From Bacteroidota bacterium (GTDB lineage: Bacteria; Bacteroidota; Bacteroidia; Chitinophagales; Chitinophagaceae): a stretch of 64,000 nucleotides of DNA. The position numbers were made by a program, and so were the translations under genes. The notes under the pieces are model-generated. The model saw nothing but the letters and a program-made list of their open reading frames with translations. It searched no databases and was not told where the DNA came from. The stretch covers positions 1 through 64,000 of the forward strand of contig JAGWUV010000018.1 of assembly GCA_028875875.1 (NCBI GenBank). Direction: 5' to 3'. Each line of letters begins with the position of its first letter. Within the stretch, counting starts at the first letter, position 1. This document shows, piece after piece, positions 15,525 through 20,774 of this stretch.

Positions 15525-16523
15525 TCAATTCATCATTTTCACAATCATCTCTTTCATCAAACCGGCATCTGAGGTTCCGGCATCGTGTACGCCAACGCTC
15601 CTTAAATTGTATTCATGCAGCAATAATAATATTCTTTCAACCCCCTGGTAGTTATAGGTTCTTGCAGCCTGCAAATAATCACGAATAAAATAAGGGTTAA
15701 TACCAAGCGCCGAAGCCAGGCCTTTTTCATCATTTGTACCGGCGCCAAACACCATAAAAACTTTACTGAAAAAATTATAAAGTGCCGGCAACAACATTTG
15801 AATTGGTGCTGCTTTAGGATTAGCATCGAAATACTGGATGATGCGAACCGCTTTGGATAAATCTTTTTTGGCGATTGCATCCTGCATCTCAAATACATTA
15901 AACTCTTTACTTACACCAATATAATTTTCGATATCATCCTCGGTAATATTCTTTCTCCCGGCCAGATTCACTACCAGTTTCTCTACTTCATTTTCTATAC
16001 GGCTAAGATCATTCCCTATATGATCTACCATTAAAAACAAAGCTTTCTGCGTAATCGTTAACCCGTGTTGTTGTACAATACTGTTCGTCCAATCGGGTAA
16101 TTGGTTATCGTATATTTTTTTTGTGGAAAGAAGCTCCCCCTTCTGTTTTAGCACCTTAGCCAGTTTGCTTCTGCCATCTACCTTCTTGTCTTTATAACTT
16201 ACAACGAAAACGGTAGAAGTAAGCGGATTTTCAATGTAAGCTTCAAGTTTATCTATATCACGCATATGCTGCGCTTCCTTAAGTAACACAACCTGCCTTT
16301 CAGCAAACATAGGATAACGCCGGCAGGCATTGATCACAGCGACCCAATCTGCATCGCGTCCATAAAAAACAGTGAGGTTAAATCCCTTTTCAGATTCGGG
16401 AAGAATTTTGTGTTCCGCATAAGCTACAACCTGATCTATGAAGTAGGCTTCCTCTCCTTCCAGCCAATAAACCGGTTTGAATATACCTTTCTTCCAATCA
16501 GACAGTATTTTTTCTGCGCTCAT
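15525..16523 (-). CDS. holA: DNA polymerase III, delta subunit
   Basis: A 332-residue protein matching HolA, the clamp-loader subunit that opens the beta sliding clamp. It begins SAEKILSDWKKG, then PVYWLEGEEAYFIDQVV (AAA+-like N-terminal domain without a working Walker motif, as usual for delta), RYPMFAERQVVLLKEAQ, and the C-terminal helical collar (IENEVEKLVVNLAGRK, FNVFEMQDAIAKKD). An in-frame TTG at 16532 is the end of a promoter-like GATATTTG (16530-16537), so ATG 16523, six bases beyond it, is chosen. It lies 53 bases downstream of the exonuclease gene on the same strand. Confidence 0.9.
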   Translation of the reverse strand: MSAEKILSDWKKGIFKPVYWLEGEEAYFIDQVVAYAEHKILPESEKGFNLTVFYGRDADWVAVINACRRYPMFAERQVVLLKEAQHMRDIDKLEAYIENPLTSTVFVVSYKDKKVDGRSKLAKVLKQKGELLSTKKIYDNQLPDWTNSIVQQHGLTITQKALFLMVDHIGNDLSRIENEVEKLVVNLAGRKNITEDDIENYIGVSKEFNVFEMQDAIAKKDLSKAVRIIQYFDANPKAAPIQMLLPALYNFFSKVFMVFGAGTNDEKGLASALGINPYFIRDYLQAARTYNYQGVERILLLLHEYNLRSVGVHDAGTSDAGLMKEMIVKMMN

Positions 16524-16576
16524 AGGCTGCAAATATCTAACAGGACAGCCTAAGAACGATGAAGGTTATTCAGATA

Positions 16577-17293
16577 TTATCCAGATATCACCTGCACGCA
16601 ACTATCCGGCAAAAGAGGAATATTGTGAAAACGGAGAATTACATTGGCGGTAACAACAACATCCCGCTGGCAATATTCTGCAATGCGTTCTATATCCCGC
16701 TCTTTATAATACACGTCTTTCACCATGCTGCCGTCCATATCTGTTTTAGAAGTTGGTATGCCCAGCACATTGGCCAGCAAATGCAGGGAAACATAATTTT
16801 TATTATCCCCAAATTTCCACCAGCTAAGCGTATCGAACATTTTTACTTCCCAAGGCCGTTTATCATGTAATTGCAAATAAGAGGGCAGCGGTAATTGATG
16901 AATAAGCAACCGCCGGCAGATATAAGGAATATCAAACTCCCTTATATTATGCCCTGCAAACTGAAAATTTTTATGATGCTGGTACATCTTATCGCATAAA
17001 GCAACAAATGACTGTAAAACCGATCTTTCATCATCTCCATAAATACTTTTCATCCGTAAGCACCATTGTTTATGCTCATCCTGATAAAAAAAGGCCGTAG
17101 AAATACATATTATTTTTCCAAATTCAGCCAGTATTCCTGCTTTTTGCTGATAGCTTTCCTCGGCTGATATATTTTCTGGCACGGTTTTAGAAATCTTATC
17201 CAACCAGAGACGTTGCCAACCTTCAGCTAGCATAGAAAACTGTTCAACCCCCGGTACCGTTTCAATATCAAGTATTAATAAATGTTCAAGCAT
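16577..17293 (-). CDS. DEDDy-type 3'-5' exonuclease (PolB-like exonuclease domain)
   Basis: A 238-residue stand-alone exonuclease of the DnaQ-like superfamily (DNA_pol_B_exo2 type). ExoI is LLILDIETVPG (Asp and Glu metal ligands), ExoII is AGHNIREFDIPYI (Asp), ExoIII is IAEYCQRDVVVT, whose Tyr-x3-Asp marks the DEDDy group. It probably trims 3' ends of DNA or RNA in repair or processing; the true substrate is unknown. ATG 17293 is used because the in-frame TTG at 17305 sits in a promoter-like stretch (TATAACTTG) and would add only four residues. It is next to holA on the same strand and divergent from the coiled-coil pair. Confidence 0.85.
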   Translation of the reverse strand: MLEHLLILDIETVPGVEQFSMLAEGWQRLWLDKISKTVPENISAEESYQQKAGILAEFGKIICISTAFFYQDEHKQWCLRMKSIYGDDERSVLQSFVALCDKMYQHHKNFQFAGHNIREFDIPYICRRLLIHQLPLPSYLQLHDKRPWEVKMFDTLSWWKFGDNKNYVSLHLLANVLGIPTSKTDMDGSMVKDVYYKERDIERIAEYCQRDVVVTANVILRFHNIPLLPDSCVQVISG

Positions 17294-17348
17294 AACTGAA
17301 AACAAGTTATATAAAAAAATATTATTTAACCAATAAAAATTAATCGTT

Positions 17349-18302
17349 ATGAGCTACAATCCAACTTCCAATGGCGATGTTCAGGCTTCTCCCAAAAAAG
17401 ATTACAGGGGCATTATTTACGCTGTGTTCACAGTAGCATTATTAGCCACATGGGGATATATGATTTTTGATAAGAGCAAAACAACCGAAACGGTTCAGCA
17501 ACTACAGGCACACATTGTTAATACAGACAGTTCTAAAACAGTTTTACAGCAGGCATTTGAGGAAACTTCAGCCAAGCTTGATTCTTTGACCGGAAGTGAT
17601 TACAAACTCAAAGGAAATCTTGAGCAGAAGAACAAGGAAGTGTATCGCCTGAAAAGTAATATTGCTTCTATCCTGAAAAAGAAGAATGCTTCAGACAGGG
17701 AATTAGCTGATGCTAAGAAAATGATAGATGAATTGAATTCTAAAGTTGAAGAATTATATGCTGAGATTGATAAACTAAAAGGAGAAAACCAGCAGTTAGC
17801 CGAAGCAAATCAAAAACTTACTGCATCTCAAACCGAACTCCAAAGTAATTTAGTAAAAACAGTTGCAGAAAGAGACCACGTTACAGATGTAGCTTCTACA
17901 CTTCATGCTTCTAACATTAATATTGAAGCCTTGAAGCTAAGGCATGGTAAAGAGAAAGAAACCACTACCGCTAAACGTGCCGACTTGTTGCGTATTTCAT
18001 TTGATCTTGATCAGAATAGAATTACGCCCAGTGGTGAAAAAGATTTGTATGTGTGCGTAGTTGGCCCTGATGGTACCCCCATTAGTAAAGGTGAAACTAT
18101 TGCAACCAGAGAGGAAGGCGATAAAAAAGTAACCAGTAAAGTAAGTGTTAACTATGAGCAAGGTAAAACTCAACCCGTAAGTGTTGACTGGAAAAATGCA
18201 GGTAAATATCAGCCCGGGGAATATAAAGTATCAATTTATCAGAACGGATTTAAGATTGGCGAAAGCACCATTAACTTAAAAAAAGGCGGCTTATTCAGCT
18301 AA
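17349..18302 (+). CDS. Membrane-anchored coiled-coil protein, tandem copy 1 (unknown function)
   Basis: A 317-residue protein that I cannot name. Residues 1-20 are polar and cytoplasmic, 22-40 a single hydrophobic helix (YAVFTVALLATWGYMIF), 45-190 a long heptad-like coiled coil rich in Lys, Glu, Gln and Leu (for example LKSNIASILKKKNAS, KIDELNSK-type repeats), and about 195-317 a compact beta-rich domain containing RADLLRISFDLDQNRITPSG and a Gly/Lys end KKGGLFS. This topology suggests anchoring in the inner membrane with the coiled coil and beta domain in the periplasm. It is paralogous throughout to the next gene (same order, same LASTLHASNIN-type linker). A hairpin terminator separates them. 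Confidence 0.8.
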   Translation: MSYNPTSNGDVQASPKKDYRGIIYAVFTVALLATWGYMIFDKSKTTETVQQLQAHIVNTDSSKTVLQQAFEETSAKLDSLTGSDYKLKGNLEQKNKEVYRLKSNIASILKKKNASDRELADAKKMIDELNSKVEELYAEIDKLKGENQQLAEANQKLTASQTELQSNLVKTVAERDHVTDVASTLHASNINIEALKLRHGKEKETTTAKRADLLRISFDLDQNRITPSGEKDLYVCVVGPDGTPISKGETIATREEGDKKVTSKVSVNYEQGKTQPVSVDWKNAGKYQPGEYKVSIYQNGFKIGESTINLKKGGLFS

Positions 18303-18340
18303 TGTAACCTTATTACATACGAACCACCCCCTTATCAATA

Positions 18341-18368
18341 GAATGATAGCTTGCAAGAGCTATCATTC
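18341..18368 (+). terminator. Intrinsic terminator after coiled-coil copy 1
   Basis: GAATGATAGCT (18341-18351) and its exact complement (18358-18368) around the loop TGCAAG, followed by TTATT. It closes the first paralog, so the second probably has its own promoter. Confidence 0.75.
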
Positions 18369-18445
18369 TTATTCTGAAAACGATAATTAAAATCATTTTA
18401 AAAATCTTAAACAAAAAGTATTTTAGCGAATAAATCTACTCTTTT

Positions 18446-19420
18446 ATGACATACACTCCTTCGGCCACACCACAGGCCCCTCAACCCAAAGACAACCGAA
18501 AAGCCATTTATGGTTTGTTAATAGCAGCCCTGGTATTAACCTGGGGCTATATTATTTACGATAAAAGCCAAACAAAAGAAACTATAGCACAAAAAGATAC
18601 CCAGATCACTACTGTTACTAATGCCAAAGACTCATTACAGGTATTATTTAATGATGCCTCAGCAAGAGCTGATTCTTTAACGGGAAGCAATGTTCAGCTA
18701 CAGGGTGCATTGGCTGAAAAGAATAGCGATATCCTGAAATTAAAATCGAATATTCGCAGCATTCTTAACAAAAAGAACGCAACAGATGCTGAGTTAAAAC
18801 AGGCGAAGGAAATGATCTCTGAACTGAACAGCAAAATAGATGGGCTTTTTGCTGAGATCAATCAATTAAAAGGCGAAAATCAACAGCTTACGGCAGCCAA
18901 CCAGCAACTGACTACAGAAAAAACACAGCTTACTGCTGAGAAAGGACAATTGCAAACAGACCTTTCTAAAACACAAACAGAAAAAGCTAAAGTTGAAGAC
19001 CTTGCTTCTACCCTTCATGCTTCTAACATTAATGTAACTGCGGTAATTGTAAAAAAGAACGGAAGCCAGAAAGAAACATCCAACTCTAAAAGAGCTGATA
19101 TGTTTGTTATCTCTTGCTCATTAGATGAAAACCGCGTTACGCCAAGCGGTAAGAAAACATTATATGTTTGCGTACTGAACCCAGACGGAACCCCATCCGG
19201 AACTGAAGGAACTTTTACAGCAAGAGATGGCAGTCAAAAGCCATATACCAATCGTGTTGAGGTTAATTATGAGCAAGGTAAAGCCATGCCCGTTAGTTTT
19301 AATTGGAAACCGGGCGATAAATTTCAAAGCGGCGATTATAAAATCGAGATCTACCATAACGGTTTTAAAATTGGCGAAGGCAATAAAAATATGAGAAAAG
19401 GCGGCTTTTTAGGTTTATAA
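18446..19420 (+). CDS. Membrane-anchored coiled-coil protein, tandem copy 2 (unknown function)
   Basis: A 324-residue paralog of the preceding gene with the same plan: short polar N-terminus, one hydrophobic helix (GLLIAALVLTWGYIIY), a coiled coil to about residue 195 with a Gln/Thr-rich QQLTAANQQLTTEKTQLT-like repeat that is longer than in copy 1, then the beta domain with RADMFVISCSLDENRVTPSG and NYEQGKAMPVSFNWKPGDK. Conservation is strongest in the C-terminal domain, which suggests that this is the functional part. A periplasmic Ig-like fold is my guess from the strand pattern. The 143-base gap and terminator between the copies argue for separate expression. Confidence 0.8.
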   Translation: MTYTPSATPQAPQPKDNRKAIYGLLIAALVLTWGYIIYDKSQTKETIAQKDTQITTVTNAKDSLQVLFNDASARADSLTGSNVQLQGALAEKNSDILKLKSNIRSILNKKNATDAELKQAKEMISELNSKIDGLFAEINQLKGENQQLTAANQQLTTEKTQLTAEKGQLQTDLSKTQTEKAKVEDLASTLHASNINVTAVIVKKNGSQKETSNSKRADMFVISCSLDENRVTPSGKKTLYVCVLNPDGTPSGTEGTFTARDGSQKPYTNRVEVNYEQGKAMPVSFNWKPGDKFQSGDYKIEIYHNGFKIGEGNKNMRKGGFLGL

Positions 19421-19447
19421 TACTATCAGCGCATCATTTTATTTTTC

Positions 19448-19473
19448 AAAAGGCAGTAGTAATACTGCCTTTT
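19448..19473 (+). terminator. Intrinsic terminator after coiled-coil copy 2
   Basis: AAAAGGCAGTA (19448-19458), loop GTAA, then the exact complement ending in TTTT (19463-19473) and more T-rich sequence. Confidence 0.82.
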
Positions 19474-19619
19474 GCTTTTGCAAACTGCAGCTACAGTGAA
19501 CTACACAAACCATATGGTACATTTATTTAGTAAATACTTTAAAAGCATACCAACTTATTTAATATCCTATATAAAGTAATCGGTCAGTTTCATTTTTAAA
19601 TAAATCTTACTTTAGGATT

Positions 19620-20774
19620 ATGATACAGCAATGGTTGAACTGGCGCACAGCTTTAGTAATAACAGCACTCTGCATTGTAAGCGGAACCGTTTTTTATTCG
19701 CATTACCTGTCGCAAAAACTTGCCATTGAAGAAAGAAAAAAAGTAGAACATTGGATAGAGGCCCAAAAAACTTTGCTGAATAATGCCGACACTTTGAATA
19801 TTACACTAGCCTCAAGAATTTCAACAGACAATACAGATATTCCAATCATAGAAACAGATGAGAAAGACCGTATAACAGGCAACTACATTAATCTTGATAG
19901 CACAAGGATTAAGTCCGATTCAAATTATCTTCAACACCTTGTAAGCCAGTTTAAAGGCCAGAACAAGCCTATCGAGTTTGTATTAAGCAAAAGCCCGTAT
20001 GTTGCAAATAAATATTATTATGGAGAAAGCAAGCTACAGCAGGAAATAAAATACTATCCTTATGTGCAATTATTGATCGTTGCTTTATTTATAATCATCC
20101 TGGTGAGTGCACAACGCAGTACACACCAAAATACACAGAACAGTTTATGGGCAGGCATGGCCAAAGAAACGGCGCATCAGTTGGGAACTCCTGTGAGCAG
20201 CCTCGAAGGATGGCTTGAAGTATTAAAAGAAATTCCGGGTAATGAAAATATCGTTAGTGAAATAGGAAAAGACATTAACAGACTACAATTGGTAACGGAC
20301 CGTTTCAGCAAAATTGGAAGTACTCCTAAACTGGAGGTTAAAAACATAGTTTACCAGGTACAATATATGATGGATTACATCAAAAAAAGAGCAGGCGGAC
20401 ATGTGAGTTTCTCTCTCAATACAAATGGTGAAAAAGAAATAACAACTTTAATTTCAGCCCCTCTTTTCGACTGGGTGATTGAAAATTTACTGAAGAATGC
20501 ATTAGATGCAATGGAAGGCAGAGGAAATATCGCTATCAATATCCAGCGAATCAACAAAGCCATTCAAATAGATGTTAGTGATACTGGTAAGGGTATTTCC
20601 AAAGCCAACTTGCATAAGGTTTTTAAACCAGGTTTTACTACAAAAAAGAGAGGTTGGGGGCTTGGGCTAACACTTACCCAGCGTATTATTGAGCAATATC
20701 ATAAAGGCAAAATATTTATTTTATTTAGCGAACCGGGTAAAGGAACCACCTTCAGAATATTTTTACCTGCATAA
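19620..20774 (+). CDS. Membrane sensor histidine kinase (orphan)
   Basis: A 384-residue two-component kinase. Two membrane helices (about residues 12-30 and 143-162) enclose a periplasmic sensor region of roughly 110 residues with no recognised domain. There is no HAMP. The H-box is KETAHQLGTPVSSLEGW with the phospho-accepting His. The ATPase part shows an N-box NLLKNALDAM, G1 DTGKGIS, F-box FKPGFTTK and G2 GWGLGLTL. It autophosphorylates and would pass phosphate to an unlinked response regulator, as none is nearby. A TACTTTAG element (19608-19615) ends four bases before the ATG, predicting an almost leaderless message. The stop faces the methyltransferase gene with an 8-base gap. Confidence 0.92.
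   Translation: MIQQWLNWRTALVITALCIVSGTVFYSHYLSQKLAIEERKKVEHWIEAQKTLLNNADTLNITLASRISTDNTDIPIIETDEKDRITGNYINLDSTRIKSDSNYLQHLVSQFKGQNKPIEFVLSKSPYVANKYYYGESKLQQEIKYYPYVQLLIVALFIIILVSAQRSTHQNTQNSLWAGMAKETAHQLGTPVSSLEGWLEVLKEIPGNENIVSEIGKDINRLQLVTDRFSKIGSTPKLEVKNIVYQVQYMMDYIKKRAGGHVSFSLNTNGEKEITTLISAPLFDWVIENLLKNALDAMEGRGNIAINIQRINKAIQIDVSDTGKGISKANLHKVFKPGFTTKKRGWGLGLTLTQRIIEQYHKGKIFILFSEPGKGTTFRIFLPA

Follow-up and report, generated by a model that had tools for sequence, protein, structure and literature searches.

A predicted membrane-anchored coiled-coil family with an Ig/FN3-like head, near-universal in the sampled genomes of its class and encoded in tandem in a Chitinophagaceae genome

GldM/PorM proteins cross the membrane with a single helix and have beta domains in the periplasm, and the PRK09039-type peptidoglycan-binding proteins combine a membrane helix, a coiled coil and an OmpA domain. 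In Escherichia coli, periplasmic widening by 3 and 4 nm is described for Lpp variants lengthened by 14 and 21 residues (PMC5736177), so heptad insertions of such lengths can matter. Deletion of chu_0125 is reported to give sixfold more vesicles (PMC5891637), and the OmpA-like domain of PorE, another multi-domain protein of this kind, is reported to have been solved together with a fragment of peptidoglycan (PMC7192894). Hypothetical proteins specific to Bacteroidetes were listed by locus tag in 2007 (PMC1887533), and our literature search returned no paper that could be linked to the family described below.

The window analysed here is a stretch of 64,000 nucleotides from a 3.5-Mb genome, the closest named relatives of which are Hydrotalea (Chitinophagaceae). 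NCBI taxonomy puts this family in class Chitinophagia; the class referred to below is that of the genome taxonomy of our search tool, which we take to be Bacteroidia. The window carries two adjacent paralogs, A and B, which we tentatively read as an inner-membrane strut, tether or scaffold extending toward the peptidoglycan and the outer membrane.

Architecture and setting of genes A and B

Genes A (17349..18302, + strand, 317 aa, from the ORF, homology and alignment) and B (18446..19420, + strand, 324 aa, from the ORF and a full-length AlphaFold model) lie where the initial annotation had placed them. They are 51.5% identical by blastp (53% in the genome search) and are the only copies of the family found in their own genome by that search. 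In A, a membrane helix is predicted from alignment and hydrophobicity at about residues 22-40 (17412..17468, +), followed by a coiled-coil rod at about residues 43-182 (17475..17894, +; heptad profile and rod-length measurement) and a C-terminal beta domain (CTD; 17895..18299, +), which was placed with alignments A2 and A6, the structure model being that of B. In B, the predicted membrane helix (about residues 20-38; 18503..18559, +; alignment, model and hydrophobicity) is followed by a conserved DK, a rod at about residues 41-187 (18566..19006, +; model and heptad profile) and the CTD (19007..19417, +; AlphaFold and fold matches). The blocks KRAD..IS..LD.NR.TPSG, NYEQGK and KIGE, singled out in the initial annotation, occur in the CTDs of both proteins.

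The AlphaFold models are monomers made on B. The CTD, modelled with a 69-row alignment, was predicted to be an all-beta sandwich (mean pLDDT 92.8), and the full-length model (pLDDT 84.6, pTM 0.49) had helices at residues 18-79, 88-107 and 114-187, followed by the CTD, with predicted helix breaks near residues 80-87 and 108-113. The hydrophobicity profile of the family agrees with a single hydrophobic helix followed by heptads and then a beta domain, so the plan common to the two genes, as first proposed, is backed by both the model of B and the family profile.

The initial annotation also gave each gene its own terminator and considered the two to be expressed separately. A perfect, terminator-like 12-bp hairpin does lie 3' of each gene (inverted repeat and folding), at 18340..18369 (+) after A and at 19447..19474 (+) after B, with folding energies of -17.7 and -17.4 kcal/mol, respectively (z -4.71 each, with none of 200 shuffles doing as well). 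However, a generic terminator scan of the window listed neither hairpin, and the T-run behind that of A is weak; termination at this site is no more than likely. Separate expression was itself deduced from these hairpins, but the 143-nt gap between A and B contains no + strand site among the nine promoter-like sites listed (shuffle mean 12.1).

Upstream of A, and divergent from it, are a holA-like and an exonuclease-like gene (15525-17305 of the window, named by eye). They have matches in 60/80 and 59/80 near loci, respectively, and neither recurs in the distant loci, where no neighbour was common to more than 4 of 20. Gene order therefore names no function. Behind B is a gene for a membrane histidine kinase (HATPase_c; 19620-20774), with a match in 27 of the 80 near loci. 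The presence of this kinase would suit an envelope sensor, the head of which would sense the state of the wall or outer membrane and relay it via the conserved membrane helix to a partner in the inner membrane. The membrane helix and its end (T-W-G-Y, D-K) would suit it too, since many of the positions that vary little or not at all within the near family lie there. Sensing of the cell wall, as suggested in the initial annotation, is thus possible, but we consider a sensor rather unlikely, because the cytoplasmic part has only about 20 residues, with no signalling domain listed, and because, among the 20 distant loci, the kinase was matched only by the large frames L099 and L100, over 18% of the length.

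Family identity and distribution

The databases searched give the A/B family neither a name nor a known function, and the initial annotation was correct in assigning the proteins to no named family. With full-length A and B, all Pfam and NCBIfam matches listed fell below the cut-off and lay mostly in the coiled coil (25 best matches for each protein, from a total of 51 Pfam matches for A and 39 for B), and the CTD taken alone, from 26 members and from 65, had weak and scattered matches to Pfam and NCBIfam. ZapB (PF06005) scored 24.9 bits with A and 29.6 bits with B, versus a gathering score of 31.5, and the SMC models (TIGR02168/02169) scored 23 to 30 bits, versus equivalog cut-offs of 567 and 729, in both cases with the coiled-coil part only. 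OmpA (PF00691) was absent from the best 25 of 51 matches for A, the best 25 of 39 for B and the CTD matches listed. A search of solved structures by sequence yielded no convincing chain (best E value 0.039 with B, 1.2 with profile A2 and 0.072 with profile A6).

By structure comparison, the modelled CTD of B resembles Ig/FN3-like domains of solved structures, most of which are accessory domains of glycosidases and one of which is in AlkC. The best matches were AlkC (Z 9.9; 3.1 A over 107 residues) and a GH2 mannanase (Z 9.7; 3.8 A over 109 residues), but fold matches less than 1 Z apart are tied, and unrelated proteins often reach a best Z of 7-8. The model thus indicates an Ig/FN3-like fold, and this is a pointer to the fold rather than to a family or a function.

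With B as the query, a match was found in 143 of the 147 genomes of its own family; about 99 of these 143 genomes had one match and the remainder two or three. A CTD profile (38 members) matched 378 of the 396 genomes of the class (about 95%). In the family of G249, 103/110 genomes had a match. Homologs therefore extend far beyond the genome of origin, and members are present in nearly all sampled genomes of the class. Outside the class, a narrow CTD profile matched 0/287 genomes (392 searched, 105 of them in the class) and a wide one matched 1/223 (296 searched, 73 in the class), the two outside samples overlapping. The sole outside match, in G262, covers the profile only in part within a long multi-domain frame and was not counted as a member. 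A further search of 28 genomes without a match, at E values of up to 1, gave nothing better than 0.046, so the absences look real. The genomes without the family include all eight sampled genomes of one taxonomic family, group f4 (G157, G237, G350, G404, G415, G419, G444 and G461), as well as both from genus g32 and, among others, several genomes of small size. Those of f4 and g32 are complete and of ordinary size, and the family is therefore dispensable in places.

We also considered whether the proteins belong to the machinery of type IX secretion or gliding, given that both are features of Bacteroidota and that GldM combines a membrane helix with beta domains. A part in type IX secretion was rejected on the basis of a double dissociation from GldM (TIGR03517) in the 40 genomes tested, and the machinery reading as a whole is most improbable: GldM was above the cut-off in 17/17 tested genomes lacking the family, whereas GldM is missing from G378 and G370, both of which carry the family. 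The only GldM match in the A/B genome is on contig C24, and not on the contig of A and B (C31).

Side of the membrane, rod geometry and tandem pairs

Statistics were computed for 166 members, 80 distant and 86 near, leaving out L165, which is truncated at the end of its contig, and L051, which is partial. Rows for the distant members were drawn from best-first listings, so weak members are under-represented. Net charge was higher on the N-terminal side of the membrane helix in 59/80 distant and 70/86 near members, equal on the two sides in 10 and 16, and lower on the N-terminal side in 11 and 0, respectively. No lipobox was found near the membrane helix in any of the 166 members. Two CTD columns both hold cysteine in 32 members, with only one of them doing so in 1 member and neither in 133; the 32 members with the pair are all distant, and A and B lack it. 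On a quick tree of these 80 distant members, each column requires a minimum of 12 changes. Four independent contrasts, too few for significance, fell on well-supported branches; on average 3.6 of them agreed in direction, with none reversed (median p 0.125). The coupled pair would fit a disulfide in an oxidising compartment.

The CTD is also found in other protein contexts. In 13/17 genomes of one flavobacterial genus it occurs in long frames of 921-1030 residues, and G883, from another genus, has such a frame of 1032 residues. One of the long frames, P0001 (934 residues), in which Pfam domains were scanned, contains PD40, CarboxypepD_reg and OmpA domains, with the CTD at the C-terminus and, by eye, a signal-like N-terminus; the ends of seven more long CTD frames begin alike. 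P0001 scores 311.5 bits (cut-off 620) with its nearest NCBIfam model, that of the CHU_0125 outer membrane integrity family. A CHU_0125-type profile had matches in 11/14 control genomes; it gave nothing but weak matches in 5/6 genomes of f4 and strong ones in other genomes lacking the family. Loci with CTD-ended long frames in the flavobacterial genus are L182:4197-6998 (-), L192-L197 and L199, and at L182 the long gene adjoins an OmpH/Skp-like gene (by eye). Directly downstream of a long CTD-bearing gene, L192:4967-5533 and L193:4886-5422 encode small proteins consisting of a signal-like start and almost nothing but the CTD.

The charges, the coupled cysteines of relatives and these exported-looking forms support a periplasmic CTD. 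The arrangement envisaged in the initial annotation, with an inner-membrane anchor and a periplasmic coiled coil carrying a folded head, is likewise supported. All these features argue against a membrane-attached coiled-coil protein of the cytoplasm acting on the chromosome or the division ring. Such a protein would account for the SMC and ZapB matches, but these are below the cut-off and confined to the coiled coil, and we find this reading very improbable.

The distance from the end of the membrane helix to the CTD was 120-154 residues over the 166 members (mean 130.9, sd 7.0 in distant members; 126-142 in near members). In the second arm of the rod (117 to 190), the family profile has hydrophobic positions at heptad spacing; the heptads are strong to about position 162 and weaker at about 166-180 in distant members. 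A core asparagine is present at position 145 in 149/166 members and at position 152 in 114/166. Asparagine at a with leucine at d is a signature of parallel two-stranded coils; the family largely shows it, and the heptads fit a parallel dimer, the probable form of the rod. An intramolecular hairpin, a candidate prompted by the similar lengths of the two arms, is disfavoured, as these lengths are nearly uncorrelated (r 0.16). Steps of 7 residues in arm length are common, and steps of 3-4 residues also occur. From residue 41 to residue 190, B has 150 residues and A has 143, which would span about 22 and 21 nm, respectively, if fully helical and straight (with a textbook rise per residue). However, the predicted helix breaks could make the rod bent or folded and leave it short of the outer membrane.

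The narrow range of rod lengths also bears on whether the proteins could be scaffolds or chaperones of an envelope machine, such as the divisome, wall synthesis or outer-membrane biogenesis, the coiled coil being a protein-binding surface rather than a spacer. The occurrence of the family in most of the class would suit such a role, and Ig-like heads, like coiled coils, often serve as interaction modules. However, there is no class-wide link to any gene cluster, and rod length stays within narrow limits; we regard this reading as possible but doubtful.

The A+B pair occurs in the window, at L005, L007, L008, L009 and L010 (5/80 related loci, some of which are cut by contig ends) and at L187 (G057); L191 appears to be the same as L010 and was not counted as a separate pair. 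Further tandem pairs were found at L144 (from another family), L184, L185, L186 and L188. The second paralog of L184 and L185 is of a distinct type. Such a divergent second paralog lies near the main gene at L184:4046-5044, L185:3404-4330, L189:3759-4694 and L190:3970-4917, with a membrane-helix end like TW-Y-HLYDK, and this type is present in several genomes of the family to which the A/B genome belongs. The duplication reported in the initial annotation is thus conserved in some relatives, but not in the majority of own-family genomes, which have a single match. A simple recent duplication is not supported: A members formed one clade in the trees and B members branched elsewhere, and a topology holding A with the lineage of B was rejected with 21 rows (AU p 0.002). 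With 23 rows, after the addition of the long-branch L030 and L041, this topology was not rejected (p 0.073). The split between A and B is probably old, with losses, or A may derive from a neighbouring lineage.

The second rod arm has 67 residues in A and 74 in B in the window and at L005 and L007-L010, a difference of exactly one heptad; in B of the window, the heptad absent from A corresponds by alignment to residues 155-161 (18908..18928, +). At L187 (3486-5591), however, the arm has 74 residues in the A-type and 70 in the B-type protein, so the loss of a heptad is not common to all A members. Total rod lengths were unequal in 12/12 tandem pairs measured, by 3 to 31 residues, and this argues weakly for homodimers; full-length in-register A/B hetero-oligomers, an option raised in the initial annotation, are weakly disfavoured. 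The persistence of the A+B pair in several species might suggest that a heterodimer is the functional unit. However, the rod of A falls short of that of B by one heptad in six A+B pairs and exceeds it by four residues at L187, such that an in-register coil would need looped-out residues, and most genomes of the family have a single match. We therefore consider the heterodimer improbable.

A possible envelope role and comparison with known systems

We return to the reading of A and B as a strut, tether or scaffold of the inner membrane, which is plausible but tentative as to role, reach and partner. A single membrane helix with a short tail in the cytoplasm would anchor a long coiled coil, probably a parallel dimer, which for a straight rod would place the Ig/FN3-like head some 20 nm away. 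This head would most likely dock on peptidoglycan or on an OmpA/Pal-type partner of the outer membrane, and the protein would thereby link the inner membrane to the cell wall or the outer membrane. The fusion in P0001, which joins such a head to an OmpA-type protein, and the narrow range of rod lengths speak for this reading. In their own genome, A and B may form two homodimeric rods differing by one heptad (about 1 nm). Several points count against this reading: long fused frames were seen in a single genus plus one other genome, 11/80 distant members break the charge rule, A and B lack the coupled cysteines, the heptads weaken at about 166-180 in distant members, arm lengths also change in steps of 3-4 residues, gene order points to no function and the family is dispensable in places.

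A more specific version is a transenvelope ruler peculiar to the class, in which the rod of about 120-154 residues maintains or measures the distance to both peptidoglycan and outer membrane, OmpA-type proteins can carry the same head, and paralogs provide two rod lengths; we put this forward as speculation and think it unlikely in full. An envelope protein without a Pfam or NCBIfam model in about 95% of the genomes sampled from a class represents a gap in our knowledge of how these envelopes are built. With rods of such narrowly limited length, naturally occurring length variants and an OmpA fusion, it becomes directly testable how the inner and outer layers are kept together or monitored across the periplasm.

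Of the systems introduced above, the OmpA/Pal-type proteins (the CHU_0125 family and PorE) are, like A and B, envelope proteins of Bacteroidota, and one OmpA-domain protein carries a CTD of the A/B type; A and B differ from them in having an inner-membrane anchor, no propeller and no listed OmpA match. GldM/PorM shares the single membrane helix and periplasmic beta domains, but has a different profile and a distribution that dissociates from that of the A/B family in both directions. B matches the first part of the PRK09039-type model (NCBIfam NF006542) with an E value of 1.4e-5, although at 24.3 bits versus a cut-off of 388, and the head of A and B is Ig-like. Lpp of E. coli is comparable only in the way it works, as a coiled-coil protein in which the number of heptads sets a distance; it is a lipoprotein anchored in the outer membrane, whereas the A/B family has a membrane helix in place of a lipobox, together with a beta head.
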